Assembly: GCA_022448525.1 (NCBI GenBank)
Contig: JAKVCX010000004.1
Location: 372,001-436,000, forward strand
DNA: 64,000 nt
Reading direction: 5' to 3'
From: Tenacibaculum sp.
GTDB taxonomy: Bacteria; Bacteroidota; Bacteroidia; Flavobacteriales; Flavobacteriaceae
Shown piece by piece: positions 37,372 to 56,163 of this stretch; position 1 is the first letter of the stretch; every line of letters begins with the position of its first letter. A program made the position numbers and the translations under genes. The notes under the pieces are model-generated. The model made no database searches. It saw only the letters and a list, made by a program, of their open reading frames with translations, and was not told the origin of the DNA.

Positions 37372-38889
37372 ATGATTGTAAACGAAGCTCCTCCCATTAA
37401 AGAATTATCGTTAAATAGTTACTTGTTTAATGATGAATCTCTTGCTTTATATGAAGATTATATCTCTAAAACATTGGTTTATGTCCAAAAGTTTTTGGCG
37501 AATAGAAAGTTTTACAAAGGTGATGATATTGAGGAAATCAGAATCAACAAACAGAAAGCACGATTAATAGATATCAATTCATCTAACCCCATTCATAAAG
37601 CGTTAGAGGAATTAAATGAGTTGTATTTAGATAATGCAATAGCCTTTCATAATCCAAATTATGTAGCGCATTTAAACTGCCCAATTACACTACCATCAAT
37701 TGTTGCAGAATTAATTACAACAACAGTAAACACCGCAGTAGAAACCTGGGATCAAAGTACCTCTGCAACCTTTATTGAACAAGAAGTAATTCGTTGGATT
37801 TGTAACGAATTTAAATTTGATGATTATTCCGATGGTGTTTTTACAAGTGGTGGAACACAATCAAATTTTATGGCACTATTAATGGCCAGAGATCATTATG
37901 CTTTCGAGAAGTTTGGCATCAACATTAAACAGAATGGATGGTCTGATCAAGTCAGTAAATTTAGAATCTTCTGTTCGGAAAAATCACACTTTAGTATCAA
38001 GAAAAACGCTGCGCTTCTAGGAATGGGATATGACGCTGTTGTTCCTGTAAAAGTAGACGATAAAATGTGTATGGATACAGAGGAATTAGTTCTTGCTATT
38101 GAAAAAACTAAACAGGAAGGAAACATTCCAATTGCAGTTGTAGCTACATTAGGAACTACAGATTATGGAAGTTTCGATCCAATTAAAACGATAGGGAAAA
38201 TTGCAAAAGAACAAGAACTTTGGTTACATGTGGATGGAGCATATGGTGGATGTTATGTGTTAACAGAAACTCATAATCACTACTTTGATGGAGTTGAATA
38301 TGCAGATTCAATTACTATAGATTTTCATAAAACATTATTCCAACCCGTAAGTTGTAGCGCATTTTTAGCTAGAAATAGAAAACATTTTCAGTATGTTTCT
38401 TACTATGCAGATTATCTAAATCCTTTAGAAGATAAAGATTCTGAAAGACCTAATTTGATTGAAAAGTCTATTCAAACTACAAGGAGATTCGATGCTTTAA
38501 AAGTTTGGTTAACCCTAAAAACTTTAGGAACAAAAACCATTGCTTCTTATTTAGAAGAAGTACATCATTTGGCAAAACAGGTGTATAATAACATGCTTAG
38601 TAATCCGAATTTTGAATTGGCGCATGTTCCTGAATTAAGTACAATTGTATTCAGATATAAAAACTCTGAAGCTGATCATGAACCAACGCATGATGAAGTG
38701 AATCTTCATATTAAAAACACTTTATATAAATCAGGAAAAGCATCAATTGCAAGTACTAAATTAAATGGAAATATCTATTTAAAATTCACACTCTTAAACC
38801 CAAAAAACACCATTAATAACTTGTTGAACATCGTAGATATGATTGAAGAAACAGGTAAACTTTATCAACCTAAAACAGAAGCATTATGA
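37372..38889 (+). CDS. PLP-dependent group II decarboxylase (lysine/diamine-forming, siderophore pathway)
   Basis: FTSGGTQSNFMALLMARD, LWLHVDGAYGG, SITIDFHKTLFQPVSCSAF (PLP lysine); first gene of operon with N-monooxygenase. Confidence 0.93.
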   Translation: MIVNEAPPIKELSLNSYLFNDESLALYEDYISKTLVYVQKFLANRKFYKGDDIEEIRINKQKARLIDINSSNPIHKALEELNELYLDNAIAFHNPNYVAHLNCPITLPSIVAELITTTVNTAVETWDQSTSATFIEQEVIRWICNEFKFDDYSDGVFTSGGTQSNFMALLMARDHYAFEKFGINIKQNGWSDQVSKFRIFCSEKSHFSIKKNAALLGMGYDAVVPVKVDDKMCMDTEELVLAIEKTKQEGNIPIAVVATLGTTDYGSFDPIKTIGKIAKEQELWLHVDGAYGGCYVLTETHNHYFDGVEYADSITIDFHKTLFQPVSCSAFLARNRKHFQYVSYYADYLNPLEDKDSERPNLIEKSIQTTRRFDALKVWLTLKTLGTKTIASYLEEVHHLAKQVYNNMLSNPNFELAHVPELSTIVFRYKNSEADHEPTHDEVNLHIKNTLYKSGKASIASTKLNGNIYLKFTLLNPKNTINNLLNIVDMIEETGKLYQPKTEAL

Positions 38890-40223
38890 AGCAGAGCAAT
38901 GTAGCAGATTTTATTGCAATAGGAGTTGGTCCATTTAACTTAGGATTAGCATGTTTAACTGAGCCTATTGAAAACTTAAATGGAATTTTTCTAGATAAAA
39001 AGGAACGTTTTGATTGGCATCCAGGAATGTTGTTAGAAGACACAACGTTACAAATTCCATTTATGGCTGATTTTGTAACCTTAGCAGATCCAACAAATGA
39101 ATTTAGTTTTTTAAACTATATCAAAGAGCAGGGGAGAATGTATTCTTTTTATATCCGTGAGAACTTTTTGTTATTGCGTAATGAATACAATCAGTATTGT
39201 CAATGGGCTATTGAAAAGTTATCTAATATCTATTTCAGTACGGAGGTAACGCATATTGATTACGAAGAAGAAAGTGGTTTATATATTGTGACTAGTACTT
39301 GTACAAAAACAGAAGAAATCAAAATATACAAGGCAAAAAAACTAGTTTTTGGAACTGGAACTCCACCGTACATTCCGGAATCTTGTAAGAAATTAGAAGA
39401 TAAAGCTATTCATTCTTCTCAATATTTAGATCATAAAGAAGAGCTACAAAAGCAAGATAAAATAACAGTTTTAGGAAGTGGACAAAGTGCAGCAGAAATA
39501 TTTTATGATTTATTACAAGAATCTGATTCTATTGGTTATGAACTAAATTGGATCACTCGTTCACCTAGATTTTTCCCACTTGAATATTCTAAGTTAACAC
39601 TAGAAATGACATCTCCAGAATATGTTGACTATTTCTATAATTTACCTGAATCGAAAAGAGATGATTTAATTAAAAATCAAAAGCATTTATACAAAGGAAT
39701 TAACAGTGATTTAATTGCTGCAATTCATGATACTTTATATACAAAAAGAGTTATAGCTAAAGCTCCTATAAAAGTATCTCTTCGTACAAATTCTGAATTA
39801 ATTAATACGCAAATATTAGAGGATTCAATTCAGTTAGATTTACATCAAATTGAGCAAGACAAGTATTTCAGACATACAACTCAAGGTTTAGTTTTAGCAA
39901 CTGGATATGCTTATCAACTTCCTGATTTTGTTGATGGAATCTCAGATAGAATTAAATGGGATACGAAAGAACGATTCGATGTAGGAAGAAATTATAGTAT
40001 AGACATTTCTAACAATGAAATATTTGTTCAAAATGCTGAATTACATACACACGGCTTTGTAACTCCAGATTTAGGAATGGCGGCATATAGAAATTCTTAC
40101 ATCATTAAAGAAATGACTGGGATTGAACATTACCCAATCGAACAAAAAATTGCATTTCAACAATTTGAAGTTCATGAAGACGAGGAAATACCTGTAACTA
40201 TTTTAAATGAATATGAAGCTTAA
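38886..40223 (+). CDS. Lysine/ornithine/diamine N-monooxygenase (siderophore)
   Basis: DFIAIGVGPFNLGLACL, FDWHPGMLLEDTTLQIPFMADFVTLADPTNEFSFLNYIKEQGR, VLGSGQSAAEIFYDL. Confidence 0.95.
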   Translation: MKQSNVADFIAIGVGPFNLGLACLTEPIENLNGIFLDKKERFDWHPGMLLEDTTLQIPFMADFVTLADPTNEFSFLNYIKEQGRMYSFYIRENFLLLRNEYNQYCQWAIEKLSNIYFSTEVTHIDYEEESGLYIVTSTCTKTEEIKIYKAKKLVFGTGTPPYIPESCKKLEDKAIHSSQYLDHKEELQKQDKITVLGSGQSAAEIFYDLLQESDSIGYELNWITRSPRFFPLEYSKLTLEMTSPEYVDYFYNLPESKRDDLIKNQKHLYKGINSDLIAAIHDTLYTKRVIAKAPIKVSLRTNSELINTQILEDSIQLDLHQIEQDKYFRHTTQGLVLATGYAYQLPDFVDGISDRIKWDTKERFDVGRNYSIDISNNEIFVQNAELHTHGFVTPDLGMAAYRNSYIIKEMTGIEHYPIEQKIAFQQFEVHEDEEIPVTILNEYEA

Positions 40224-41391
40224 AACTTTTTTAATAGTTATGACGTTGGTTGCCGTAGTTAGTGATTATCTATTGCATCCATTTTATCCGCAATTTTTTG
40301 AACTACGTTTTGGAATAACTAATCCTGAATTGGTAGGATATTATTTCGCAGCAATTTGTTTCATGGTGATGATTGCATTTCCATTCTGGGCATATGTTTC
40401 AAAAAAAGTATCAGAATTAAACATTTTAGTCTATACTCAGTTTGTAGCTGGAATCCTAGCTTTACTTTGTTTTTACACAGAATCATATATAGCTTTTTGG
40501 GTAATTTCTTTAACCATGGTTATTTTTAAAGGAAGTTATCTATTGGTTTATCCATACATTTTAAAAATTATAACCAAAGAGGAACATCCAAGTACAATTG
40601 GCCTTTTATCTGTAGTTGTACATCTTGGAGGAATTTTGGGTGCCGTGATAGGCGGTTTAACTGTTGATTTAATCGATCCTCGAAATATATTTTTAATAAT
40701 GGCTTTAGGAGATTTCGTTCAAATGGGAATGAGTGCCTATTTATTAAGAAGTAAAAAGTATGCAACAGGCTTAATAGTTTCTGAAGAATCAGGGTCAAAA
40801 GAAGAGCGTTTTTTACCTAAAGGATTTATTCTAAAATTAGGAATTATTACACTGATTTTATATTTCAGTGACTTTCTAATAAGACCATTTTTCTCAATTT
40901 ACTGGGAAAGTTTCTCAAGCTTTAAAACGAAACTCGTTTCAGGTACAATTTACGCAATCCCAGGTTTTGTCGCTTTAATTGCGCTTTGGATAAACAATAG
41001 AAGAAAAACAAACGATGGTTATAAAGGAATTATAAATGCCTTATGTATTGCTTTAATCGGACTGTTTTTACAAGGAATTCCTTTAGAGTTATTTGTAATT
41101 ACAGGACGAATCATTTATGGTTGGGCAATTTTTCAAGGTGTAGTAAAATTCGATGTGTTGTTGTTTGAATTAAGTTCCTCGGAATCTTATGCTGTTGACT
41201 ATAGTAAAATTCACTTTTTCCAAAACTTGGGTGTTTTATTAGCTTCTTTAAGTGTAGGGATTGTTGTGGAAGACTTCGGACTTCAAATTCCATTTTCAAT
41301 TGCGTTTATAGGATTCATAATAACACTACTATTATACTTCTTTGTTTTTAAATCTGTTAGAATTCATCATAAACAACTAGCTAAAACCTGA
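40207..41391 (+). CDS. MFS transporter, probable siderophore exporter
   Basis: About 12 TM helices; overlaps the monooxygenase gene. Confidence 0.85.
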   Translation: MNMKLKTFLIVMTLVAVVSDYLLHPFYPQFFELRFGITNPELVGYYFAAICFMVMIAFPFWAYVSKKVSELNILVYTQFVAGILALLCFYTESYIAFWVISLTMVIFKGSYLLVYPYILKIITKEEHPSTIGLLSVVVHLGGILGAVIGGLTVDLIDPRNIFLIMALGDFVQMGMSAYLLRSKKYATGLIVSEESGSKEERFLPKGFILKLGIITLILYFSDFLIRPFFSIYWESFSSFKTKLVSGTIYAIPGFVALIALWINNRRKTNDGYKGIINALCIALIGLFLQGIPLELFVITGRIIYGWAIFQGVVKFDVLLFELSSSESYAVDYSKIHFFQNLGVLLASLSVGIVVEDFGLQIPFSIAFIGFIITLLLYFFVFKSVRIHHKQLAKT

Positions 41392-41395
41392 GAAA

Positions 41396-43807
41396 ATGTC
41401 AGAGAATATAGTTTTCAGTAAAAAGTATAGAGGTTTTGGCACCATTGATATTCGTCATTTTCAAATTGAAAAAGATTCAGAATTCTTGCATTCTTGGGTC
41501 AATAAAGAATATGCTGTGTTTTGGGGAATGCAAAACTCAACGCTTGATGCTGTTAAAGACGAGTATAAGAAATTAACTAAACCAGATCATTACAATGCAT
41601 TTGTAGGTTATTATAACGATGAACCTGCTTTTGTTTTGGAACAATACGATCCCAGAAAAGATGAAATAGGTAAGTATTACGATTCTAAATATTCAGACAC
41701 AGGAATTCATATTATAGTTGCTCCTCCAAAAGAAAATAAAGTAGACAATTTTACTTGGTTCATGTTTAGAGCGATTATGGATTTTGTGTTCTGTGATTTG
41801 ATGGTCTATAGAATTTTAGTAGAGCCAGACATAAGAAATAAAAAGATGTTTGCCTTGTGCCAAAGAATAGGATTTCAATTAGATAAAATCGTTGAATTAC
41901 CACACAAAACAGCACAGCTCGCATTTTTAACTAAAGAAAATTACCAACAAAAAATTAAATCTCCTTTACCTTCAAAGAGAAGTACTATGAATACAATAGA
42001 TAATGTGGTTTCTCCACAACAATCAACTCAACATATACAGCCTGCTGTTTGGGAACAAGCTAATCGTTTATTAATCAAAAAAGCCTTGTGTGAATTTTCA
42101 CACGAGTTATTAATTGAGCCAGAGGTTCAAAATAATTTAGAAAATGGTTACAAAGAATACGTAGTAAAGGCTGACGATAGTAACATCATTTATTTTTTTA
42201 ATGCAAAACCTTTAGCATTAAACCATTATATGATCGATGAAAATTCGATTAGAAAAACTATTAATAATCAAGTTGCTGAATTAGATGCTATTTTATTTAT
42301 CAAAGAATTTAGAAAAGCATTGGGAATTGCACACGAAAAAATGCCTGTTTTTCTTGAAGAAATCATCAGTACTTTATATGGTAGTGCTTTCAAAATAACC
42401 AAAGGAAATCCAACTGCAAAAGAATTAGCTACTGCCGACTTTCAAACCATTGAACAATCAATGACTGAAGGTCACCCAGGTTTTGTAGCTAATAATGGAA
42501 GAATTGGATTTGATAGTACAGATTATTGTTCTTATGCTCCAGAGGCAGGAAACTCATTTTCATTACTATGGTTAGCTGGTCATAAAAGTAAAGCTGTTTA
42601 TGCTGCAATTGAAAGTTTACCATATGAAAAATTAATCCACCAGGAGTTAGCTACCGTAACAATTGAGAAATTCAATTCTACAATTAAAGAAAAAGGTTAT
42701 AATCCTGAAGATTATTTATTCTTGCCAATTCACCCATGGCAATGGTTTAATAAACTTGCGAACATATTTGCTCCAGAAGTGGCTAAAGGAGATTTAATCT
42801 GTTTAGGTTATGGCCCTGATCAATATTTAGCTCAACAATCAATTCGAACATTATTTAATACTAGTAATCCCCAAAAATTCTACACCAAATCTGCCTTATC
42901 AATCTTAAATATGGGCTTTATGAGAGGTTTACCGCTGTATTATCTCGGAACAGCTCCTAAGATGGCAGTTTGGTTGGAGAATTTGCTATATAACGATTCT
43001 TATATTCAAGAGAACGGGTTTAGAATGCTCAGTGAAATTGGATCAGTAAGTTATGTTAATCCATATTTTGAAGAATTTGGTCCACATAATGATTATAACA
43101 AAATGTTAGCTTCATTATGGAGAGAAAGCCCTTATTCAATTGTTAAGAATAGTCAAAAGCCAATTACCATGGCTGCTTTATTACATATTGATCAACATGG
43201 TAATGCTCTATTACCAGAAATGATAAAGGATTCAGGTTTATCAATAGATGATTGGATTCGTAAATACTTACGTGCATACCTAAGTCCAATGTTACATTGT
43301 TTCTATTATTATGACTTGGTATTTATGCCTCATGGAGAGAATATAATTCTTGTTTTAGAAGATAATATTCCAGTATATGCTTTACTAAAAGATATCACTG
43401 AAGAAGCTTGTATTTTAAGTCCAGATGTAGAATTACCAGATCATTTAAAACGAATGTATGCGCCTGTTCCGGAAGATGTAAAGTTACTATCAATTTTTAC
43501 AGACATGTTCGATGGTTTCTTCCGCTTCCTAGCACCAATTTTAGAAGAACATGCAAACTATAGTGAAAATAGATTCTGGGAATTAGTAGCTGAAAATATT
43601 TCTGAATATCAAGCTAAATTTCCTCAATTAGAGCAAAAATTTAAACAGTATGACTTGTTTGCTGATGATTTCAAATTATCATGTTTAAACAGATTACAAC
43701 TAAACAATCATAAACAAATGATTGACTTAGATGATCCAGTAGCATTGTTACAATTTGCAGGAAAACTTACAAATCCGATAGCTCAATTTAAAACTCAAGA
43801 AGTATAA
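41396..43807 (+). CDS. GNAT acyltransferase - IucA/IucC (NIS synthetase) fusion
   Basis: N-terminal GNAT domain (HSWVNKEYAVFWGMQ...) then NIS synthetase motifs MTEGHPGFVANNGRIGF, LPIHPWQW, SIRTLFNTSNPQKFYTKSALSILNMGFMRGL. Confidence 0.95.
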   Translation: MSENIVFSKKYRGFGTIDIRHFQIEKDSEFLHSWVNKEYAVFWGMQNSTLDAVKDEYKKLTKPDHYNAFVGYYNDEPAFVLEQYDPRKDEIGKYYDSKYSDTGIHIIVAPPKENKVDNFTWFMFRAIMDFVFCDLMVYRILVEPDIRNKKMFALCQRIGFQLDKIVELPHKTAQLAFLTKENYQQKIKSPLPSKRSTMNTIDNVVSPQQSTQHIQPAVWEQANRLLIKKALCEFSHELLIEPEVQNNLENGYKEYVVKADDSNIIYFFNAKPLALNHYMIDENSIRKTINNQVAELDAILFIKEFRKALGIAHEKMPVFLEEIISTLYGSAFKITKGNPTAKELATADFQTIEQSMTEGHPGFVANNGRIGFDSTDYCSYAPEAGNSFSLLWLAGHKSKAVYAAIESLPYEKLIHQELATVTIEKFNSTIKEKGYNPEDYLFLPIHPWQWFNKLANIFAPEVAKGDLICLGYGPDQYLAQQSIRTLFNTSNPQKFYTKSALSILNMGFMRGLPLYYLGTAPKMAVWLENLLYNDSYIQENGFRMLSEIGSVSYVNPYFEEFGPHNDYNKMLASLWRESPYSIVKNSQKPITMAALLHIDQHGNALLPEMIKDSGLSIDDWIRKYLRAYLSPMLHCFYYYDLVFMPHGENIILVLEDNIPVYALLKDITEEACILSPDVELPDHLKRMYAPVPEDVKLLSIFTDMFDGFFRFLAPILEEHANYSENRFWELVAENISEYQAKFPQLEQKFKQYDLFADDFKLSCLNRLQLNNHKQMIDLDDPVALLQFAGKLTNPIAQFKTQEV

Positions 43808-43808
43808 T

Positions 43809-44384
43809 ATGATTTCAACGAATCAAATAGTTTTTAGTAGGGAAATTGAGGGAATAGGTACAATGAGCATAAGACCTATTCAATTAGATTCTGATATAGA
43901 TACACTTTTTAGTTGGGTAACAAAACCTTATGCAAAATATTGGGGAATGTTAGGGCAAACTAGAGATGAAGTAAAACAATCATATCAAGAAATTGAGGAT
44001 AACAATCATCATCATACCTACATCGGATTGTTAAACGATACACCTATTTTTCTAATGGAGAGATATAAAGCTTCAGAAGACATCATTGCTTCTCATTATG
44101 AAGCTTTAAATAACGATTATGGAATGCATATTCTAGTAGCTCCTGTTGAAAAAAGAATACCAAAATTTACTTGGGAAGTATTCAGAACTGTAATGGAATA
44201 CTTTTTCAGTTTATCCTTTGTAAATAGAGTAGTGGTGGAACCTGATAAAAACAATGATAAAATTCATTTGTTAAACAAGAAGGCAGGTTTTGTATACCAG
44301 AAAGAAATAGAATTGCCACATAAAGTAGCATCATTAGCTTTTTGTACTAAGAAATTATACCAAGAAGCAATTAAGAAAATTTAA
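43809..44384 (+). CDS. Stand-alone GNAT acyltransferase (IucB/siderophore type)
   Basis: Clear paralogue of the N-terminal domain of the preceding protein (FSWVTKPYAKYWGM ... GMHILVAP ... NRVVVEPDKNNDKIHLLNKKAGFVYQKEIELPHK). Confidence 0.93.
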   Translation: MISTNQIVFSREIEGIGTMSIRPIQLDSDIDTLFSWVTKPYAKYWGMLGQTRDEVKQSYQEIEDNNHHHTYIGLLNDTPIFLMERYKASEDIIASHYEALNNDYGMHILVAPVEKRIPKFTWEVFRTVMEYFFSLSFVNRVVVEPDKNNDKIHLLNKKAGFVYQKEIELPHKVASLAFCTKKLYQEAIKKI

Positions 44385-44385
44385 A

Positions 44386-46209
44386 ATGTTTGATAGGAAT
44401 ATATCACATTTACAACCTCATATTTGGGAGATTGTAAATCGTAATTTAATAAAGAAAGCGCTTAGCGAGTTTTCTCATGAACTGATACTTACACCAGAAT
44501 TTTTAAAATCTGAGAATGGTTGGAATCATTACCGAATTACTTCTGATTGTAAGCAATTTACTTATGAATTTAACGCTAAAAAATATCTGTTAGATCATTG
44601 GTACATCGATACTAAAAGTATTACTAAACGTGACGGAAATACATATAACGGATCTTTAGATGCTTTATCTTTTATAACAGAATTCAGAAAAACACTTGGT
44701 ATTCCAGATCAGTTTTTAGGAACGTATTTAGAAGAAATAACAAGTACATTATTTGGAGCAGCTTATAAATTGGCTAATGAGAAATTTTTAGCCAATGAAC
44801 TTTACAATAAAAGTTTCCAAGATATTGAACATGCCATGACTGAAGGTCATCCTTGTTTTGTTGCCAATAATGGAAGAATAGGATTTAACACCAATGATTA
44901 TCAATTATACGCACCTGAAACAAATAAACCTTTTCATATAGTTTGGATTGGAGTCCATAAAAATTATGCTTCTTTCACAGGCATCAAAGATTATGATTAC
45001 GATAGTTTATTGCGCAGTGAATTGGGAGAGGAAAAAGTTTATGAATTTTCTCAAATAATTAAAGACATGGATTTAGATATAAATAATTATCTATTCATGC
45101 CTATTCATCCTTGGCAATGGACAAATAAAATTACTCATGTATTTGCCGCAGACATTGCACAAAAGAATATAGTTTTTGTTGGAGAAAGTGAAGATAAATA
45201 TTCGGCACAACAATCTATAAGAACACTTTTTAATGTCACAAATCCAGAAAAATTATATACAAAAGGAGCTTTATCCATTCTAAATATGGGATTCATGCGA
45301 GGATTGTCTCCTTACTATATGAAAAGTACTCCACCAATCACCACTTGGATTACTGATCTTCTATCGGAAGATACATATTTGTTGAACAATGGATTTACAA
45401 TGCTTGGTGAGGTGGCAACGATAGGATATCAAAATCATTATTATGAAGTATTAGGTAAAACAAATCCACATAATAAGATGCTTTCGGCATTATGGAGAGA
45501 AAGTCCATTTACCAAAATATCTTCGAATCAAAGAGTATTAACAATGGCAGCATTATTACATCTTGATTCTGAAGACAATTCACTATTAGCATCTTTAATT
45601 GAAAATTCTCCTTATGGTGCTACAACTTGGATTAAACATTATTTAAGGGCGTATTTATCAACATTGTTACACTGCTTTTATCAATATGAATTTGTCTTTA
45701 TGCCGCATGGTGAAAATTTAATTATGGTTCTTGAAGAACATACTCCTGTCTATGTATTGATGAAAGATATTACAGAAGAAATAATTGTGTTTAATACCAA
45801 AATGGAATTACCTGAACATGTTGATCGCTTATTTACAGAGACTACAGATACAATGAAGGTATTATCAATTTTTACTGATGTTTTTGATTGTTTCTTCCGA
45901 TTTATGGCAGCACAACTCGATACTCAAATCGGATTCTCTGAACATAATTTCTGGCAGTTGGTAGCAGAATGTATTTATGAATATCAAGACGAATTCCCTC
46001 AATTCAAAGAAAAATATGAGCGTTATGATTTATTTGTTGATGAGTTTGATCGTTGTTGTTTGAATAGATTACAATTAGGTAACACCAAGCAAATGTTAGA
46101 TTTAGCCGATCCTATTGAAAGTTTAAAATTAGTTGGAACACTTGAAAATCCCTTAGCTAAATTCAGAAAAGAAAGAATAATTACTAACACTATTTCAGTA
46201 TCTGTATAA
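44386..46209 (+). CDS. IucA/IucC family NIS siderophore synthetase
   Basis: MTEGHPCFVANNGRIGF, MPIHPWQW, SIRTLFNVTNPEKLYTKGALSILNMGFMRGL, FMPHGENL. Confidence 0.95.
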   Translation: MFDRNISHLQPHIWEIVNRNLIKKALSEFSHELILTPEFLKSENGWNHYRITSDCKQFTYEFNAKKYLLDHWYIDTKSITKRDGNTYNGSLDALSFITEFRKTLGIPDQFLGTYLEEITSTLFGAAYKLANEKFLANELYNKSFQDIEHAMTEGHPCFVANNGRIGFNTNDYQLYAPETNKPFHIVWIGVHKNYASFTGIKDYDYDSLLRSELGEEKVYEFSQIIKDMDLDINNYLFMPIHPWQWTNKITHVFAADIAQKNIVFVGESEDKYSAQQSIRTLFNVTNPEKLYTKGALSILNMGFMRGLSPYYMKSTPPITTWITDLLSEDTYLLNNGFTMLGEVATIGYQNHYYEVLGKTNPHNKMLSALWRESPFTKISSNQRVLTMAALLHLDSEDNSLLASLIENSPYGATTWIKHYLRAYLSTLLHCFYQYEFVFMPHGENLIMVLEEHTPVYVLMKDITEEIIVFNTKMELPEHVDRLFTETTDTMKVLSIFTDVFDCFFRFMAAQLDTQIGFSEHNFWQLVAECIYEYQDEFPQFKEKYERYDLFVDEFDRCCLNRLQLGNTKQMLDLADPIESLKLVGTLENPLAKFRKERIITNTISVSV

Positions 46210-46210
46210 T

Positions 46211-46789
46211 ATGAATTTTGAGGAATTAACACAATTGATTAAAGAGAGAAGAACGACTTACGCCTATGATTTTTCTGAGCAAAAAGTTAGTAAAGAAACC
46301 ATAGAAGCTGTTGTAACTAATGGTCTGTGGGCTCCAACACACAAACTCACACAACCTTGGAGGTTTGTTGTTCTGGAAGGCCAACATCAACGAGATTTAG
46401 GCCAATATATGGCGGACTATTATAGAAAGTTATATACGGAGGAAGAATTTTCTAACGAGCGTTATGAAACTACAAAATCATATGCTGAAAATGCCACGCT
46501 ATTAGCCTTAGTATTTCAGCCTAGTAAAAGAGCGCAGCTTCCTGAATGGGAAGAAATTGCGGCCATATCATGTGCTATTCAAAATATGTGGTTGAGTTGC
46601 ACTGCTATGAATTTAGGTTGCTATTGGGATACCGCAGAAGCAACAATGGAATATGGTAAACGTATAAAACTAGAAGAAGGTGAAAGATTTCTTGGAATTT
46701 TCTTTATGGGAAATCTTAAAGAAGATATTGAATTAGGAAACCGCAAAAGAAAACCATTATCTAAAAAACTAAGTTGGCAATACTTATAA
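46211..46789 (+). CDS. Nitroreductase-family flavoprotein
   Basis: IKERRTTYAYDF, NGLWAPTHKLTQPWRFVVLEG, AISCAIQNMWLSCTAMNLGCYWDT. Confidence 0.9.
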   Translation: MNFEELTQLIKERRTTYAYDFSEQKVSKETIEAVVTNGLWAPTHKLTQPWRFVVLEGQHQRDLGQYMADYYRKLYTEEEFSNERYETTKSYAENATLLALVFQPSKRAQLPEWEEIAAISCAIQNMWLSCTAMNLGCYWDTAEATMEYGKRIKLEEGERFLGIFFMGNLKEDIELGNRKRKPLSKKLSWQYL

Positions 46790-46813
46790 ACCTTCTGAAC
46801 AATTACAAATAAA

Positions 46814-47914
46814 ATGAAAAAACAAAATAGAGTGCGAGCAGTTGATTTTGTTCGTGGATTTAGCGTATTAATGATGATACCGGTTCATGTATTAATGCTT
46901 TTCGCAACTATGGATACTTGGGAAAATAGCAATACAGGTAATTTTGTACAATTATTAGAAAGAGGTTCTCCTATATTTTTAATTGTAATGGGAATTTCTT
47001 TCGCTTTCTCAAGAAATGCAAATAAAAACGGAATTTTAAAAAAGGCTCTTTTAATAATCGGTTTAGGTTATGTTCTAAATTTTCTGCGCTTTATAGTTCC
47101 GCTTTTACTCTTTGGAGGCTTCCCTGAAGCTTTCGTACAAGCGAGTGAACTTACGATTAATAATCCTGCAAGAATGTTAAATTACTTCTTGAAAGGAGAT
47201 ATGTTTCAATTAGTTGGTATTTCTCTTTTTATTATTGGATTAGCATTCAGATTTTTAGTAAAAAACAAACACATAACATTAGGAGCTGCTTTGGTTATTA
47301 TGTGGCTATCAAAAGTAGTAAGCGGTTTCCAATTGGGAATTCCTGGAGTTGATTACGTTTTAAATCTGTTATGGGGAAATAACTTTGATGTATACTTTCC
47401 ATTATTCCCTTGGTTATCTTTTATTTTAATAGGATTGTATTTAGGCCTTAGTTATCTTGAAAATCAAGATAATCCAGAAAAATCATTATTCCGACCTATG
47501 TTGATTCTTGGAATTGTGTTTCTAATTTCAGGAAAGCTACTTTGTGATTATGATTATCAATATCACTTTGGAGATTATTATCATTTAGGTCCTGGAGGAA
47601 CCATGGGGTTAATGGGAATATTGTTAGTACTTTTCTGGGTTTACTATCACATCGAACGCGCATTACCAAAAGATAACTACATATCTAAGTTATTTTTTTA
47701 TTGTAGTAAAAACGTAACTCCGTTCTATTTAATTCAATGGGTATTAATTTACTGGACATTAGCTTTTACAAACTTTTCAGCATACAACGAGATAACGGTT
47801 TTAATCATCATTTTAGGAATTAATGTGGGAACTTTTACAGTGCTACATTTCGTAAATAAAATGCTTACTAGTCATAAAAACCGAGAATTAAAAACCGTAC
47901 AACCTGGTATTTAA
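46814..47914 (+). CDS. Polytopic membrane protein of the DUF1624/HGSNAT-like acyltransferase type
   Basis: RVRAVDFVRGFSVLMMIPVHVLMLF N-terminus and multiple TM helices. Confidence 0.75.
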   Translation: MKKQNRVRAVDFVRGFSVLMMIPVHVLMLFATMDTWENSNTGNFVQLLERGSPIFLIVMGISFAFSRNANKNGILKKALLIIGLGYVLNFLRFIVPLLLFGGFPEAFVQASELTINNPARMLNYFLKGDMFQLVGISLFIIGLAFRFLVKNKHITLGAALVIMWLSKVVSGFQLGIPGVDYVLNLLWGNNFDVYFPLFPWLSFILIGLYLGLSYLENQDNPEKSLFRPMLILGIVFLISGKLLCDYDYQYHFGDYYHLGPGGTMGLMGILLVLFWVYYHIERALPKDNYISKLFFYCSKNVTPFYLIQWVLIYWTLAFTNFSAYNEITVLIIILGINVGTFTVLHFVNKMLTSHKNRELKTVQPGI

Positions 47915-47917
47915 TAA

Positions 47918-48937
47918 ATGAGAAAACTAATTATACTCTTAGCAATTATCTTTCATTTAAAAGGAATTGCACAAACCAATTTGGCTGGAAGCTATGGATT
48001 AGATCCTGATGTTCAAGAATTTTTGAATGCTATTCATTCTTATGATGGACCACCTTTGCAAGATTTAGAATTAGAAATTGGAAGAAATGCAATCGTAGGA
48101 ATGCAACAAGATTCTACATTAAATTTTGATAAAGTTGTTTTTCACAAACAAACGATTACTATCAATCAGAAATCTATTAAAACTGTCTTTATAAAACCAA
48201 AAAAATCTCAAAAGGAATTATTACCTGCATTCATCTATTTTCATGGAGGTGGTTGGGTGTATAACAGCTTTGAAACTCATAAACGATTAATGCGTGACAT
48301 TGCTCTTAAAGCAAATATTGGAATTGTATTTGTTGAGTATTCAAGAGCACCTGAAGCCAAATTTCCAATTGCAAATGAAGAGGGCTATTTAACCGCTTTA
48401 TATCTCTCTAAACATGGAAAAAAACATGGTTTGGATCCAACTAAAATAAGTATCGGAGGAGATAGTGCAGGAGGGAACATGGCAGCAGTAATAGCCTTAA
48501 TGTCCAAAGAAAGACAAGAATTTGAATTAGTATCTCAAGTTTTAATCAACCCAGTTATGGATACGAATACGAATACAAAATCATACGAACAATTCTCGAA
48601 AGGACATTATCTCTCTAGAGATATTATGATCTGGTTTTGGAATATATATGCTCCAGATAAAAATAAGCATTATTCGAGTAAAATTGCTCCTTTGAAAGCT
48701 ACTAAAGAAGAGCTAACAAATTTACCTCAAACATTATTGATTACTGCCGAATATGATGTGTTAAGAGATGAAGGTGAAGCATATGCAAAAAAATTAAGAA
48801 TGGCTAAAGTTCCAGTTATCTCTACAAGATATGGAGGTACAATTCATGATTTTGTGGTGTTAAATGCTTTGAAAGATACCTATCCTTCTAAGGCTGCACT
48901 AAATCAAATATGTGATTTTTTAAAAACAACTTTTTAA
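47918..48937 (+). CDS. Exported alpha/beta hydrolase, HSL/acetyl-esterase-like
   Basis: Signal peptide; YFHGGGWVYNSFETHKR oxyanion motif and SIGGDSAGGNMAA nucleophile elbow; C-terminal GTIHDFV. Confidence 0.9.
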   Translation: MRKLIILLAIIFHLKGIAQTNLAGSYGLDPDVQEFLNAIHSYDGPPLQDLELEIGRNAIVGMQQDSTLNFDKVVFHKQTITINQKSIKTVFIKPKKSQKELLPAFIYFHGGGWVYNSFETHKRLMRDIALKANIGIVFVEYSRAPEAKFPIANEEGYLTALYLSKHGKKHGLDPTKISIGGDSAGGNMAAVIALMSKERQEFELVSQVLINPVMDTNTNTKSYEQFSKGHYLSRDIMIWFWNIYAPDKNKHYSSKIAPLKATKEELTNLPQTLLITAEYDVLRDEGEAYAKKLRMAKVPVISTRYGGTIHDFVVLNALKDTYPSKAALNQICDFLKTTF

Positions 48938-48947
48938 GTTAATTAAA

Positions 48948-49862
48948 ATGGATTTACAAACAATAGAAAACCTTTCGGGATCATTAACTCATATGAGTTT
49001 AATTGTATTAATTCTAATGTTAATAGAGTGGGGGATACTTATCTTCTCCAATCATATTGAAAGTAAAAAAGAAGGAGTCGTGAGTATTGTATCTTATCTA
49101 GTACAAAGCATTCCTTACTTTTTACTGTCTAAAGTACTAATCGTTGGTGTTATGTTCGGATTATATCATTTCCGACTCTTTGAACTCGGATTTGAATGGT
49201 ATTACTGGATTATAGCCTACTTATTATACGACTTTACTGTGTTTTTTATTCATTTTCTTGGACATAAAGTAAGATTCCTTTGGTGCATTCATGGAGTTCA
49301 TCATACAGCAGAAGAAATGAATTTAACTGTTGTTGCAAGAGGATCTATTTTTGATGTGTTTTTCACTCCATTTAATTTCATTTGGTTACCGATTTTAGGT
49401 TTTCATCCATATATGATATTTGTAATTGAACCAATTGCGAGATTATATGCTACATTAACTCATATCAGCGAAAAATATGTAGGCAAACATAAGTGGTTAG
49501 AATACATTTTTATTACACCATCTGTTCATCGTGTTCATCATGCGAAAAATCATATCTACTTAGATAGAAACTACGGTGAAACCTTTAGTATCTGGGATCG
49601 AATATTTAAAACATTTCAGAAAGAAGTCGACAATGAAAAGATTGAATATGGAGTAATGCATGACGAATTAAATAGTGAGAGCTTTTGGCACGTTCAATTT
49701 TTAATGTGGAAAGAGCTGTGGTTAGATGTTAAAAATGCTCCAACCATTATCGATAAAATTAAATACATACTAATGCCACCAGGATGGAATCACATTGATG
49801 GCGGAAAAAAAGCTGAACGATATAGAGAAGAAGCTTGGCAAAGTAGAGGAGTTAAGAACTAA
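48948..49862 (+). CDS. Sterol desaturase / fatty-acid hydroxylase family membrane di-iron protein
   Basis: His-cluster motifs HFLGHKVRFLWCIHGVHHTAEEMN and SVHRVHHAKNHIYLDRNYGE. Confidence 0.92.
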   Translation: MDLQTIENLSGSLTHMSLIVLILMLIEWGILIFSNHIESKKEGVVSIVSYLVQSIPYFLLSKVLIVGVMFGLYHFRLFELGFEWYYWIIAYLLYDFTVFFIHFLGHKVRFLWCIHGVHHTAEEMNLTVVARGSIFDVFFTPFNFIWLPILGFHPYMIFVIEPIARLYATLTHISEKYVGKHKWLEYIFITPSVHRVHHAKNHIYLDRNYGETFSIWDRIFKTFQKEVDNEKIEYGVMHDELNSESFWHVQFLMWKELWLDVKNAPTIIDKIKYILMPPGWNHIDGGKKAERYREEAWQSRGVKN

Positions 49863-50821
49863 ACTGTATTTCGATATTGTTTCGGAGTCTGTTTTACAAT
49901 TTTTTTAAAGGCTGCTGAAAAATGAGTTGGATTCTTATATCCGACTAATTCGGCAATTTCATAGATGGGTTTTGAGGTGTTAGAGAGTAATTTCTTCGCC
50001 TCAACCATTCTTTGCTGTAAAGCAAAATCAAAAATTGTAGTTCCAAAATTCGACTTAAACTCCTTTTTTAATTGAAATTCATTTAAAAACACCTTCTTAG
50101 AAAGCTCCTGAATAGATATTTGAGTATCTAAATTGTTTATAATATAATCCTTTGCTAAATGTATTTTCTTTAGAATTGTTGAATTGTTAATACCTGAGTT
50201 TTTATTATCAAAACGAAGCATTAATAACTCCAAAACTTTTGATTCTAGAAATAATCGTTTCAACAATCCTTTTCTATCATCATCTAATAGCTCTTGAACT
50301 ATTTGTTCAGATCTATAATCTAACTGATTGGAAAAGTTATTTTGTAAATTTTCAATAGAATAGTCCTCATAAATTGGAAACTCTTTATCTAACTGATGCT
50401 TTTTGATAAAATCATTGGACATCTTAATAACAATCTCTCGTATCATTTTATCCCTTGAATAAACAACATTTCCATCTGCTTTATTGATAAAGGAGATACA
50501 ACTTTCACCTTCTTCTTGAACTAATTCCTTATTACAATCAGGTAAAAACATTTTTTTCTCACCGGATAAAACGATTGAAAAGATAAGAGCATTTGTAGAT
50601 TGTAAACCTGTAACTCTAATGTCAGATAGTAATTGAATTTCTCTTTGCCTTATCATCAAACCATCGAAAACCCAACTCTTTACGAAACCTGATCCAAATT
50701 CAGGGTTTATAATGAATTCCTTGGTTTCCAATCCACAATGGGAATCAATACTTTTCAGAAGTAAAATATCATCTAAAATATATTTATTATCGATACTTAT
50801 ATCGATATCAATAGTATACAT
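49859..50821 (-). CDS. AraC-family regulator of the siderophore locus
   Basis: C-terminal HTH: ISIQELSKKVFLNEFQLKKEFKSNFGTTIFDFALQQRMVEAKKLLSNTSKPIYEIAELVGYKNPTHFSAAFKKIVKQTPKQYR; divergent from the TonB receptor gene. Confidence 0.9.
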   Translation of the reverse strand: MYTIDIDISIDNKYILDDILLLKSIDSHCGLETKEFIINPEFGSGFVKSWVFDGLMIRQREIQLLSDIRVTGLQSTNALIFSIVLSGEKKMFLPDCNKELVQEEGESCISFINKADGNVVYSRDKMIREIVIKMSNDFIKKHQLDKEFPIYEDYSIENLQNNFSNQLDYRSEQIVQELLDDDRKGLLKRLFLESKVLELLMLRFDNKNSGINNSTILKKIHLAKDYIINNLDTQISIQELSKKVFLNEFQLKKEFKSNFGTTIFDFALQQRMVEAKKLLSNTSKPIYEIAELVGYKNPTHFSAAFKKIVKQTPKQYRNTV

Positions 50822-50982: not shown

Positions 50983-53370
50983 ATGAAAAGATTTATACTT
51001 TTTGGAATCTTAGTTTTTTGCACAACTCCGTTTTTGGCTCAAATAGGAGGAACCGTAGTTGATAATGCAAAACAACCAATTTATGGGGTAACAATTGCTA
51101 TAGAAGGAAGCAATTTAAAAACAGCAACGGATATAGATGGGAAATTCAATCTACCTAAAGTTTCTGGTTCACAAACCTTGGTAATTTCCTCGATTGGATT
51201 TAAAACTAAACATATTGATATTAATGCACCTAATTCAAATATTAATATTGTTCTATTTGAAGGGAACGAACTATTAGAGGAAATTGTTTTAACTGGTTCA
51301 AAAAATAAATTCTCAAGAAAAAAGACAGCTTACGTAGCTAAGCTTCCATTAAAAAACATTGAAAACTCTCAGGTTTATTCAACGATTACTGATGAATTAC
51401 TAATCTCACAAAACGTAAATTCTTTTCAAGACGCGTTAAAAAATGTTGTTGGAATCGATAAATTATGGCAGTCGACTGGAAGAGCAGGAGATGGGGCAGG
51501 TTATTACTCTTTAAGAGGTTTTGCAACCCAACCTCAGTTAGTAAATGGAATGCCTGGAGTTACGAATGGATTTATTAATCCGTTCAATGTTGAAAGAGTT
51601 GAAGTTATAAAAGGGCCTTCGGCAACCTTATTCGGTAGTACAGTTACATCTTATGGAGGATTAATTAACATAGTTACTAAAAAGCCCAAAAAAGGAACAA
51701 CTGGAAATATTTCTTTAGGAGGAGGATCTTTCAACTTTAAAAAGATGGTACTTGATATTAATACAACAAGTGAATCTGAGAAGTTGTCGTTACGATTTAA
51801 TGCAGGTTTTCAATCAGAAGATAGTTTTCAGGATGCCGGTTTTAATGAATCTGTATTTATGGCACCATCTATAACTTATCAGGTAAATGATAAATTAACA
51901 TTCAATGTGAGTTATGAGTTATCTGCAAATGAACAAACTAATCCTGTTTTTCTGTTTTTTAACAGATACGGAACTTTGGCTTTTAATAATGTAGATGAAT
52001 TAAATTACGATTATAACAAATCTTTGACGGATGATTCTGTAAGCATTAAAAATCCAACTCAAAATTTAAGAGCAGAGGCCGTGTACAAAATAAGTGATCG
52101 AATAACCTCTCAAACAATATTTTCTACAGGAAATGCAAAATCAAATGGTTATTATTCTTATTTATGGAATTTTGCTGATTTCTCTGGACCAACACCTGCG
52201 GGAACTCCTTATTTCTCTACTTATGCGCAAAGAACAAATGCTACAACTAATTCACTTGATATTCAACAAAACTTTACAGGTGATTTTAAAATAGGTAATG
52301 TTCGAAATAGAGTATTGGTAGGAATTGATTATTTACAAACTCAAAATATAGATAACGGTTCTGGTTATGCTTACATTAATACTTTAACTGCTCAAGGAGA
52401 TTTATTAGATGGTTCTTCTATTTCAGCAAGTGTAATAGACAACGCTACAAGCGGTTTAGCAACTACTAATACAAATGTAAATCAGAATGTATTTAGCCTA
52501 TATGCTTCTGATGTTATTAATGTTTTACCAGAACTATCTTTAATGGCTGGTATTCGTTACGATCGTTTCAATTATAGAGGAGATAAAAATACTCCAGATG
52601 ATGATCTTTCTGAATATACAAAAAGTACTTTTTCACCGAAAGTTGGTGTAGTTTATCAGCCAATTCTAAATAAGGTTTCTGTATTTGCAAACTATCAGAA
52701 TGGTTTTAGTTATGTAAATCCTGAATTAACTGTCGATCCTGCTAATCCTGGTGTACCGGTATTATTATCCTTCGACTTAGAGAATGCTGATCAATTTGAA
52801 GGTGGAATTAAAACGAATTTGTTCAATAATAAGTTAGAGACTACTTTAAGTTATTACAATATTACAGTAAGCAATAAAGTAACTGGATTTGGACCAACAA
52901 AACAGCAAGATGGAGAGATCAATAGTCAAGGAATAGAAATTGATGCGAATGCTTATCCAATTGAAGGTTTAAATGTAAGAGGAGGATTTGCATACAACGA
53001 TTCTAAAGTCGTAAAATCACCATCGCAACCATTTTTAGAAGGAAGACGTTTTGGTGAAGCAGGAGCTGAATTTACCTACAATTTTTATGCAGATTATAGA
53101 TTCTTAGACGGTACTTTAAAAAATCTAGGAATAACATTTGGATTTAACGGCGCTTCAGAATACAATACAATGGAAGGATATCCACTGGTTGGTGAGTTTA
53201 TTTTACCAGCTTACACAATTTTTAACACAGGATTGTATTATGATCATGAAAAATTCAGAGTTGGATTTAATGTAAATAATCTTACAAACGAGCAATATTT
53301 CAAAGGTTGGAGTACTTTAACTCCACAACAACCAAGAGCTTATTTTGGAAATTTAACTTACAAATTCTAA
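50983..53370 (+). CDS. TonB-dependent siderophore receptor
   Basis: Signal peptide, carboxypeptidase-regulatory-like domain (GGTVVDNAKQPIYGVTIAIEGSNLKTATDIDGKFNLP), plug (VERVEVIKGPSATLFGS), C-terminal beta-barrel ending F. Confidence 0.95.
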   Translation: MKRFILFGILVFCTTPFLAQIGGTVVDNAKQPIYGVTIAIEGSNLKTATDIDGKFNLPKVSGSQTLVISSIGFKTKHIDINAPNSNINIVLFEGNELLEEIVLTGSKNKFSRKKTAYVAKLPLKNIENSQVYSTITDELLISQNVNSFQDALKNVVGIDKLWQSTGRAGDGAGYYSLRGFATQPQLVNGMPGVTNGFINPFNVERVEVIKGPSATLFGSTVTSYGGLINIVTKKPKKGTTGNISLGGGSFNFKKMVLDINTTSESEKLSLRFNAGFQSEDSFQDAGFNESVFMAPSITYQVNDKLTFNVSYELSANEQTNPVFLFFNRYGTLAFNNVDELNYDYNKSLTDDSVSIKNPTQNLRAEAVYKISDRITSQTIFSTGNAKSNGYYSYLWNFADFSGPTPAGTPYFSTYAQRTNATTNSLDIQQNFTGDFKIGNVRNRVLVGIDYLQTQNIDNGSGYAYINTLTAQGDLLDGSSISASVIDNATSGLATTNTNVNQNVFSLYASDVINVLPELSLMAGIRYDRFNYRGDKNTPDDDLSEYTKSTFSPKVGVVYQPILNKVSVFANYQNGFSYVNPELTVDPANPGVPVLLSFDLENADQFEGGIKTNLFNNKLETTLSYYNITVSNKVTGFGPTKQQDGEINSQGIEIDANAYPIEGLNVRGGFAYNDSKVVKSPSQPFLEGRRFGEAGAEFTYNFYADYRFLDGTLKNLGITFGFNGASEYNTMEGYPLVGEFILPAYTIFNTGLYYDHEKFRVGFNVNNLTNEQYFKGWSTLTPQQPRAYFGNLTYKF

Positions 53371-53805: not shown

Positions 53806-54097
53806 AAAGTACTTAACTACATCTCCTTCGCAAAAAGCAATAAAAATTATTGCTGGAATTATCGGAGGCTACATCATTTCATCATTACTTCATATGATTG
53901 CAGCACTGATTATTCCTTTTAATAAAGAGATTCTAGTAACTGCTACATTCAGTTTATTCCTAATTTGGATGATTTTTTTAATTATTCCTTATTTATTCGA
54001 GAATGGATATAAGGTTTTAATATGCTATACAATTGTTATTGCGTCACTTTATATGATGTATTCTTCATTAAGTAATCATAATCCTTTTTTACAATGA
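53783..54097 (+). CDS. Small membrane protein, DUF3649-like
   Basis: KIIAGIIGGYIISSLLHMIAALIIPFNKEILVTATFSLFLIWMI resembles DUF3649 iron-uptake proteins; overlaps both neighbours. Confidence 0.6.
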   Translation: MFLMPANKKYLTTSPSQKAIKIIAGIIGGYIISSLLHMIAALIIPFNKEILVTATFSLFLIWMIFLIIPYLFENGYKVLICYTIVIASLYMMYSSLSNHNPFLQ

Positions 54098-56163
54098 GTA
54101 AAAGAAATTACAATGTATTTTTTCATACACATACTGTAAGTGGAATAGTTATTAGTGTTGCTCTTTATGTTATTTTTTTTGCAGGTGCTTTTGCCTTATT
54201 TAAAGATGAAATTTTAATTTGGGAAGAAGGAAAATCTATCAACCATATTGAAAGAAGTGAAGTTAATTATGATGATATTTTAAAAAGATTAGATACAAAA
54301 TATGATTTAACAGGAAGAGATGTAGAAATTGATTTAGCCAAAGAAGAGGATAACTTGTTCATTTATCTTTTATCGAGTAAGGATTCCTTGAGTAGTGAAT
54401 CAAGTAAAGCATCACACTTTTTTTCATATAACATAACAACAAAGGAAGAGAAGCGATATCATGAGTATTATGGAATTGGAGAGTTTTTATATCGATTACA
54501 CTTTTTCCATCAAATACCAACCATAGGAATATATCTTGCCGGTTTTGTGGCTTTCTTTTTTTTATTCACGATTGTCACAGGAACAATTGTACATTGGAAA
54601 AAAATTGTTCCTAATTTTTACAAGTTTAACCCTAAAGTTGCTTTAAAAAGAGTTTGGGCAGACGCGCATACATCTTTAGGAGTAATAGGTTTACCATTTC
54701 AATTCATGTTTGCCGTGACTGGAGCTTATTTTTGTTTAAGCTTGCTGGTATTACTTCCTGCTAATTTTTTATATGAAGGAAATCAAAAGAAACTACTAGA
54801 AGATTTAAGACCGGAACGTAAAACCTATGAATGGTCTAAGCGAATAAATCAAGATGTACCTAGCATAAATAGTTTTGTAAAAGAGTATAGCAATACTTGG
54901 AGTAATTTTAGTAGTACTCATTTATATATTAGAAATTATAAAGGAGATAATTGTAAATATATTTTACAAGGAAATCTTGAATATAAAGATCGTTTTGTTG
55001 GTTTAGGAAGAATTGTTTTTGATGCAGTTAAAAGCGAAGTAGTTACTATCAAAAACCCTTATGAATTAAATTATATTGAAGATGTACAGAAAGTATTAAC
55101 TCGATTACATTTTGGGAATTTTGGTGGAGTTATTGTAAAGGTGGTTTACTTTATTTTAGCATTAATAACTTGTTTTGTAATAATTACAGGAGTTTTGATT
55201 TGGGTTGAAGCTAGAAACAAGAAAAGTGCCACGCTGCAACAACAATTATTTGTAGCAAAGGTAGGTCATGTGTACCTCGCTATTTGCTTATCCATGCTAC
55301 CGGTTACCGCTATTTCATTTCTCTTTGTAAAGCTATTTGGAGATTCTTTTTCAAATAAACAGCAAAGTTTGTACTACTGTTATTTTCTACTTTGGTTAAT
55401 TGCTGCCGTCTATATGCGATTTCAAAGAAATAATTATAAAATAAATAAACAGAGCTTATTAGTTGGTGGAATATCGGCTTTATGTATTCCTGTTGTGAAT
55501 GGAATCGTTTCTAATCAATGGATTTGGAAATCTATTTATAACAAGCAACATGAAATTTTAACTATCGATTTACTTTGGCTATTTATTGGGATTATGGCAT
55601 TGTGGGTTTACAGTAAAATTTCACCTAATATTCAAAAACAAAGTAGTTATTCAAAAAACCCGATTGACTATAAAAACTTAAAAACTCTCTTAAAACTAGA
55701 AGAGAATCAAACTACAACAAACCATATTTTACAAATTAAAAAAGAAAAAAATTTTATACCTATGAGAACAAAAGTTATTCTATTGTGGACTTTATTAGTC
55801 ATTGGATTCATACTACATCACGTTTATGGTATTGCCAATGTTTATTTTCAAGAATCCCTAGTATTGGAAGGATCAAACGGAGAAATACCAGGTTGGGCAC
55901 ATCAATGGAGAATTATATTGGAAGGAATGGCATTTTTATTTGCTGTTTTAACCGTTTCTCTTTCACAAAACTGGTTTAAATGGACTTCTTTAATTTGGGC
56001 TTGCCTGTTAGGTTTATTTAATGTTTATCATTTTATAACAGCCTTAATTTATGAACCTTCGAATATTTCAGAGATTTTAATATTGCTTTTAATGGCAGTT
56101 GCTAATGTGTTTTTAGTTAAAGAAATACTCAATTGGAAATCACACCAATTATCAGAAGAATAG
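54094..56163 (+). CDS. PepSY-domain membrane protein, probable ferric-siderophore reductase component
   Basis: FHTHTVSGIVISVALYVIFFAGAFALFKDEI, RLHFFHQIPTIGIYLAGFVAFFFLFTIVTGTIVHWKK, ADAHTSLGVIGLPFQFMFAVTGAYF. Confidence 0.9.
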   Translation: MSKRNYNVFFHTHTVSGIVISVALYVIFFAGAFALFKDEILIWEEGKSINHIERSEVNYDDILKRLDTKYDLTGRDVEIDLAKEEDNLFIYLLSSKDSLSSESSKASHFFSYNITTKEEKRYHEYYGIGEFLYRLHFFHQIPTIGIYLAGFVAFFFLFTIVTGTIVHWKKIVPNFYKFNPKVALKRVWADAHTSLGVIGLPFQFMFAVTGAYFCLSLLVLLPANFLYEGNQKKLLEDLRPERKTYEWSKRINQDVPSINSFVKEYSNTWSNFSSTHLYIRNYKGDNCKYILQGNLEYKDRFVGLGRIVFDAVKSEVVTIKNPYELNYIEDVQKVLTRLHFGNFGGVIVKVVYFILALITCFVIITGVLIWVEARNKKSATLQQQLFVAKVGHVYLAICLSMLPVTAISFLFVKLFGDSFSNKQQSLYYCYFLLWLIAAVYMRFQRNNYKINKQSLLVGGISALCIPVVNGIVSNQWIWKSIYNKQHEILTIDLLWLFIGIMALWVYSKISPNIQKQSSYSKNPIDYKNLKTLLKLEENQTTTNHILQIKKEKNFIPMRTKVILLWTLLVIGFILHHVYGIANVYFQESLVLEGSNGEIPGWAHQWRIILEGMAFLFAVLTVSLSQNWFKWTSLIWACLLGLFNVYHFITALIYEPSNISEILILLLMAVANVFLVKEILNWKSHQLSEE

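Follow-up and report, generated by a model that had tools for sequence, protein, structure and literature searches.

Gene content of the locus and the published bsb cluster

The present study concerns a 64,000-nucleotide stretch of a Tenacibaculum sp. genome (contig JAKVCX010000004.1, positions 372,001 to 436,000; hereafter, the window), which encodes two adjacent acyltransferase and synthetase pairs for siderophore assembly. The genes from A to the receptor candidate, and the residues placed within them, lie on the + strand unless stated otherwise. The first pair is a single BsbCD1-like protein of 803 aa, CD1 (41396..43807), in which a GNAT acyltransferase (C1) is fused to a synthetase (D1) of the nonribosomal peptide synthetase-independent siderophore (NIS) type. 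Its Pfam domains are Acetyltransf_8 (7e-40), IucA_IucC (3e-74), and a C-terminal FhuF domain (6e-41), and it matches DfoC (PDB 5o7o) over the full length (E 6e-243). The second pair is split into C2 (43809..44384; 191 aa; Acetyltransf_8, 6e-46), a BsbC2-like stand-alone GNAT acyltransferase and predicted succinyltransferase, and D2 (44386..46209; 607 aa; IucA_IucC, 3e-78, and FhuF), a BsbD2-like stand-alone NIS synthetase predicted to form linear products, whose nearest solved structures are DfoC and DesD. Gaps of 1 bp separate the three open reading frames (ORFs). C1 and C2 share 42% identity over 187 aa, D1 and D2 share 49.5% over 596 aa, and the whole genome was found to hold just these two Acetyltransf_8 and these two IucA_IucC genes. 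The ORFs, coordinates, and domains agree with the sequence-only reading, which had proposed a duplicated GNAT and NIS cassette with one copy fused and one split.

Upstream, A (37372..38889; Pyridoxal_deC, 7e-68) encodes a BsbA-like pyridoxal phosphate-dependent decarboxylase, predicted to act on lysine, and B (38886..40223; Lys_Orn_oxgnase, 2.5e-123) a BsbB-like N-hydroxylating flavin monooxygenase, predicted to be a cadaverine N-hydroxylase. These two genes support the cadaverine/succinate pathway to which the cassette had been assigned. They are followed by E (40207..41391; MFS_1, 6e-17), a BsbE-like major facilitator superfamily (MFS) transporter and predicted exporter. The closely spaced gene run that includes the CD1/C2/D2 cassette spans 37372-49862.

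Judged by gene order, cluster length, and paralogue identities, the locus is a bisucaberin B (bsb) type cluster, an arrangement that was already known. The bsb cluster of Tenacibaculum mesophilum comprises six ORFs, A, B, E (MFS), CD1, C2, and D2, in 8840 bp, with paralogue identities of 44% (C1/C2) and 50% (D1/D2) (PMC6164419). Compared through this published description, the window shows the identical six-gene order (A-B-MFS-CD1-C2-D2) and fusion state, an A-to-D2 length of 8838 bp, and corresponding identities of 42% and 49.5%; its CD1 has 803 aa, as against 204+606 aa published for bsb. The window organism is probably another species than the published source, and the genes N, H, X, and F that closely follow D2 fall outside the six-gene description. 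Duplication and fusion of CD had already been reported in 2017 for the tbs locus of T. maritimum (PMC5561996), and a survey of Flavobacteriaceae gave 167 bisucaberin B-like clusters (PMC10734526). In Escherichia coli, BsbD2 alone produced linear bisucaberin B, no siderophore came from the severed BsbD1 part, co-expression of both lowered the yield, and no macrocycle was detected with BsbD1, BsbD2, or both (PMC6164419). The authors left the inactivity of D1 undecided and found no residues that would explain the missing ring closure (PMC6164419). Whereas the sequence-only reading had left the layout unexplained and had held that the product could not be told, the layout is that of this published cluster, whose D2 makes linear bisucaberin B (PMC6164419).

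A GNAT-NIS fusion as such is ordinary, as DfoC and BibC carry the two domains in the same order as CD1. However, DfoC and BibC are single macrocycle-making enzymes, whereas CD1 is an extra copy beside C2/D2 with residues specific to C1 and D1. The rhizobactin 1021 locus on pSymA resembles the window in having two NIS synthetases and two GNATs, but its synthetases are distant relatives, whereas those of the window belong to a paired paralogous cassette. We take the product of that locus to be an asymmetric siderophore.

Distribution, conservation, and copy-specific residues of CD1

A scan of genome contigs for CD1 yielded 80 named loci, chiefly from Tenacibaculum, Aquimarina, and Flavobacterium. 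A second C+D set was present in 80/80 of them (in L052, the sequence stops within this set), either split or, in many Aquimarina, likewise fused. CD1 was open in all 80 loci, whereas D2 was broken in two (L035 and L080). The A gene was found in nearly all loci and the E gene in 58/80. In L080, from Flavobacterium davisii, A, B, and D2 are each in pieces and CD1 is open, which may reflect decay or sequencing error. Among 400 genomes drawn evenly from the family of the window, five carried both D1 and D2, none carried only one of them, and two further genomes carried a distant NIS gene of ~36% identity.

In Plesiocystis pacifica (L054, 3451-9951), the gene order A-B-E-C-D-H-CD1 combines a canonical DesC/DesD-like pair with a Bacteroidota-type CD1. 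Pseudobacteriovorax (L078) likewise has a D1-group CD1 beside a canonical DesD-type C+D pair. Since CD1 adjoins a canonical DesD-type pair in these two, it appears to be an addition to the chain-forming enzyme and not a replacement for it. Thus, CD1 accompanies chain-forming pairs of either kind, which we read as an added function. Horizontal spread to Gammaproteobacteria through 'Glaciecola amylolytica' (L057, CP034120.1) was considered and rejected, as the draw for its class consisted of the same Bacteroidia genomes as that for the window; the entry itself appears to be a Bacteroidia genome.

In a mixture-model tree, D1 (support 99), D2 (98), and the canonical DesD/DfoC/AlcC enzymes (92) each formed one group, joined in an open three-way fork. 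A first tree rooted on AlcC had placed D1 and D2 as sisters; this was dropped, as distant outgroups shift the root into D2 and the mixture-model tree gives the open fork. The separation of the D2 group from DesD/DfoC/AlcC is what membership in the bsb type requires, the T. mesophilum sequence itself being outside the tree. The C1 sequences also formed one group (98), and C2 adjoined the canonical C enzymes. Since D1, D2, and the canonical synthetases form three groups, their roles split long ago.

Of 2850 genome pairs, which are non-independent but uniform in direction, 2848 showed stronger conservation of D1 than of D2. Furthermore, the median ratio of nonsynonymous to synonymous substitution rates (dN/dS) was 0.054 for D1 and 0.074 for D2 over 80 close pairs (dS 0.1-1.0). 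The stronger conservation and lower dN/dS of D1 argue against a decaying or 'inherently inactive' D1. The sequence-only reading had held that both copies look functional, and a check of catalytic residues on the alignment found the motifs kept. The synthetase motifs it had quoted occur in both copies; specifically, D1 and D2 both retain EGHPxFVANNGRxGF, HPWQW, QQSIRT, HGEN, and KDxxEE. With IucA_IucC and FhuF domains together with EGHP, HPWQW, QQSIRT, and HGEN, both have the makeup of type C NIS synthetases (DesD/DfoC/AlcC). The EPD motif is likewise intact in C1 and C2, as is the His in G(I/M)H. Taken together, these comparisons suggest that CD1 is a strongly conserved enzyme with a specialized partner role rather than a defunct copy.

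D1 is no plain copy of D2, as its fixed positions differ from those of D2 and of the canonical enzymes alike. Where D2 and the canonical enzymes read RGLSxxYMxxTPxI, D1 reads RGLPxYYLxTAPxM. Its signature, PLYYLGTAPKMA (residues 513-524; 42932..42967), replaces SxxYMxxTPxI(N/T), and P513, L517, A520, M523, and A524 are fixed in 81/81 D1 sequences; the corresponding residues of D2 and of the canonical enzymes are S, M, T, I, and T/N, respectively. In C1, the signature MFxxC (Met151, Phe152, Cys155; 41846..41860) replaces IHxxN, so that Phe152 and Cys155 take the places of the His and Asn found in C2 and in canonical succinyl-type enzymes. Cys155 was present in 80/80 C1 sequences, and Asn occupied that site in 79/79 C2 and 12/13 references. 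The HxxN after EPD that is common to canonical C enzymes, and is taken here to mark the DesC type, was found in 79/79 C2, whereas C1 has FxxC. Rv1347c/MbtK, whose role is presumed, also has Cys at the Cys155 site, and the two GNATs of the pSymA rhizobactin locus, whose roles are likewise presumed, are without HxxN.

Two canonical residues are missing from both synthetase copies. An Arg present in 14/14 canonical D enzymes is replaced by G/S at D1 position 546 and mostly by G at D2 position 341 (Gly341 in the window, 45406..45408). An Asn present in 13/14 is replaced by A at D1 position 524 and by T at D2 position 319 (Thr319, 45340..45342). Distant NIS outgroups likewise carry G and T at these sites. 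The loss of this Arg and Asn is a candidate basis, by correlation only, for the linear-product trait.

Genes downstream of D2

Four genes, N, H, X, and F, follow D2 on the same strand with gaps of 1-24 bp. H (46814..47914; HGSNAT_cat, 4e-17) encodes an HGSNAT-type membrane acetyltransferase. In 76/80 CD1 loci, an H-like gene shares the strand of the cluster; the relationship of these genes was confirmed by Pfam. In Tenacibaculum and Aquimarina they follow D2, in Flavobacterium they sit between B and CD1, and in Plesiocystis the gene sits between D and CD1; on a Pseudoalteromonas plasmid, an H-like gene adjoins a single fused CD. H looks like an unreported member of the cluster, and a link between HGSNAT and siderophores was not found in the literature searched. 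H is predicted to acetylate a terminal amine, which makes it a candidate source of N-acetylated siderophore forms.

N (46211..46789; Nitroreductase, 8e-24), a nitroreductase-family flavoprotein gene, starts 1 bp after D2 and occurs in 20/80 loci; a hydroxylamine or reductive role is possible. X (47918..48937; Abhydrolase_3, 1e-61) encodes an alpha/beta hydrolase with a signal-like N-terminus and occurs in 17/80 loci. F (48948..49862; FA_hydroxylase, 2e-24) encodes a fatty-acid-hydroxylase-family membrane protein, matched in 26/80 loci, that could act on an acyl tail. Further on, an AraC-family regulator gene, R2 (49859..50821; HTH_18), lies on the - strand and has counterparts in 49/80 loci. 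A candidate TonB-dependent siderophore receptor (50983..53370) matches TIGR01783 (E 3e-62) at 211 bits, slightly below the 223.5-bit cut-off. Near it is a PepSY-associated transmembrane protein (54094-56163). PepSY proteins are frequently associated with the reduction of siderophore-bound iron.

Proposed roles of the two pairs in siderophore assembly

Tenacibaculum produces acyl-capped linear siderophores of the desferrioxamine type (PMC8767563, PMC12224167). Tenacibactins K-M consist of C15-acyl-N-hydroxycadaverine, succinyl-N-hydroxycadaverine, and a succinyl-hydroxamic acid end; one hydroxamate thus bears a C15 acyl cap, and the opposite end a succinyl unit (PMC8767563). In T. maritimum, acyl-capped, N-acetylated, hydroxamic-acid-terminal, and succinic-terminal families have been described (PMC12224167). 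Besides, the Streptomyces DesH, a second DesC-like GNAT, makes the capping monomer in vivo, with support from knock-outs (PMC12161575). The DesC/DesD and DesG/DesH system resembles the window in adding another DesC-like GNAT to the succinylating enzyme and in its tie to capped linear products, but DesH has no accompanying second NIS synthetase, whereas in the window both domains are duplicated and fused (PMC12161575). Our DesH search on one Streptomyces plasmid found DesG and no DesH.

Because of the tenacibactin structures, the T. maritimum families, and the Streptomyces DesH, we assign the succinyl units to C2/D2 and a different end unit to CD1. The locus is thus best seen, with reasonable but far from full confidence, as a bsb-type operon for linear hydroxamates of the bisucaberin B / tenacibactin class in which CD1 supplies that end unit. 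A and B would provide N-hydroxycadaverine, and C2/D2 would make and join the succinyl units. C1 would load a non-succinyl acyl donor, a fatty or short acyl group, onto N-hydroxycadaverine, and D1 would join the resulting unit to the chain. The product would be linear, capped, and asymmetric, and H probably acetylates its other end. For D2, activity in E. coli has been shown by others with the T. mesophilum orthologue, and the present comparisons establish homology, layout, conservation, copy-specific residues, and obligate pairing; which donor C1 uses, which reaction D1 catalyzes, and what H does are inferred. Among the options that the sequence-only reading had put forward, two acyl donors or an asymmetric product fit best.

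Several points weigh against an end unit made by CD1. T. mesophilum is reported with uncapped bisucaberin B, which needs no CD1 (PMC6270104, PMC6164419). A DesC-type GNAT accepts acetyl-CoA in vitro, making capping possible without a second GNAT (PMC12161575), and E. coli expressing D1 made no product, although C1 was absent there and N-hydroxy-N-succinylcadaverine (HSC) was the supplied monomer (PMC6164419). Furthermore, the residue signatures are correlative, with few GNATs of known donor, and a structural, non-catalytic role of D1 would preserve strong conservation equally well.

CD1 could instead build the terminus, C1 succinylating the free amine end and D1 activating the succinate so that hydroxylamine traps it as the hydroxamic acid of tenacibactins K-M. 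That succinyl-NHOH terminus was reported as unprecedented (PMC8767563), hydroxamic-acid-terminal compounds are the most abundant T. maritimum family (PMC12224167), and the NIS synthetase AcsD takes hydroxylamine as a nucleophile (PMC3323832). The D1 motif after RGL has lost conserved side chains, and N lies 1 bp downstream of D2. However, this putative source of hydroxylamine is found in just 20/80 loci, C1 is unlike succinyl-type GNATs, and oxidative dealkylation could yield the same terminus; we therefore regard this account as unlikely. Rather unlikely, too, is a D1 specialized to end the chain by placing hydroxylamine on a terminal succinate, which would give the terminal hydroxamic acid known only from the tenacibactins, with the linked C1 providing a succinylated or acylated end.

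The bsb authors left open that CD1 may be a redundant or catalytically dead duplicate that yields nothing by itself; their BsbD1 part gave no siderophore and cut the yield on co-expression (PMC6164419). The retained catalytic motifs, the open CD1 in every locus as against a D2 broken in two, and the stronger purifying selection on D1 make this improbable. We give equally little credence to both pairs catalyzing the same reaction, the second copy raising the dose or tuning the dimer/trimer ratio. Core motifs are indeed common to both synthetases, and a single D enzyme is known to act iteratively (PMC6164419), but C1 and D1 have fixed residues of their own, D1 and D2 form old, distinct clades, and neither copy was lost alone in the family sample of 400 genomes. 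A division of labor between a chain-forming and a ring-closing synthetase, also raised by the sequence-only reading, is conceivable, as canonical DesD/DfoC/AlcC perform both steps (PMC6164419). It is highly improbable, as no macrocycle appeared with D1, D2, or both, D1 having been assayed as a severed domain only (PMC6164419); moreover, both copies lack the canonical Arg and Asn, and the reported Tenacibaculum products are linear (PMC6164419, PMC8767563, PMC12224167).

New with respect to published work are the obligate pairing of CD1 with a second C+D set, the separate D1 and D2 groups, the conservation of D1, the copy-specific residues, and the apparent membership of H. The residues named here, C1 Phe152/Cys155, D1 513-524, and the Arg and Asn lost from both D copies, can be tested, as can the H gene. 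The questions that the bsb authors left open, why the C/D set is doubled and whether D1 is inactive, are addressed by comparative evidence against decay. Our analysis thereby connects the arrangement of the genes with the acyl-capped siderophores reported for the genus Tenacibaculum.

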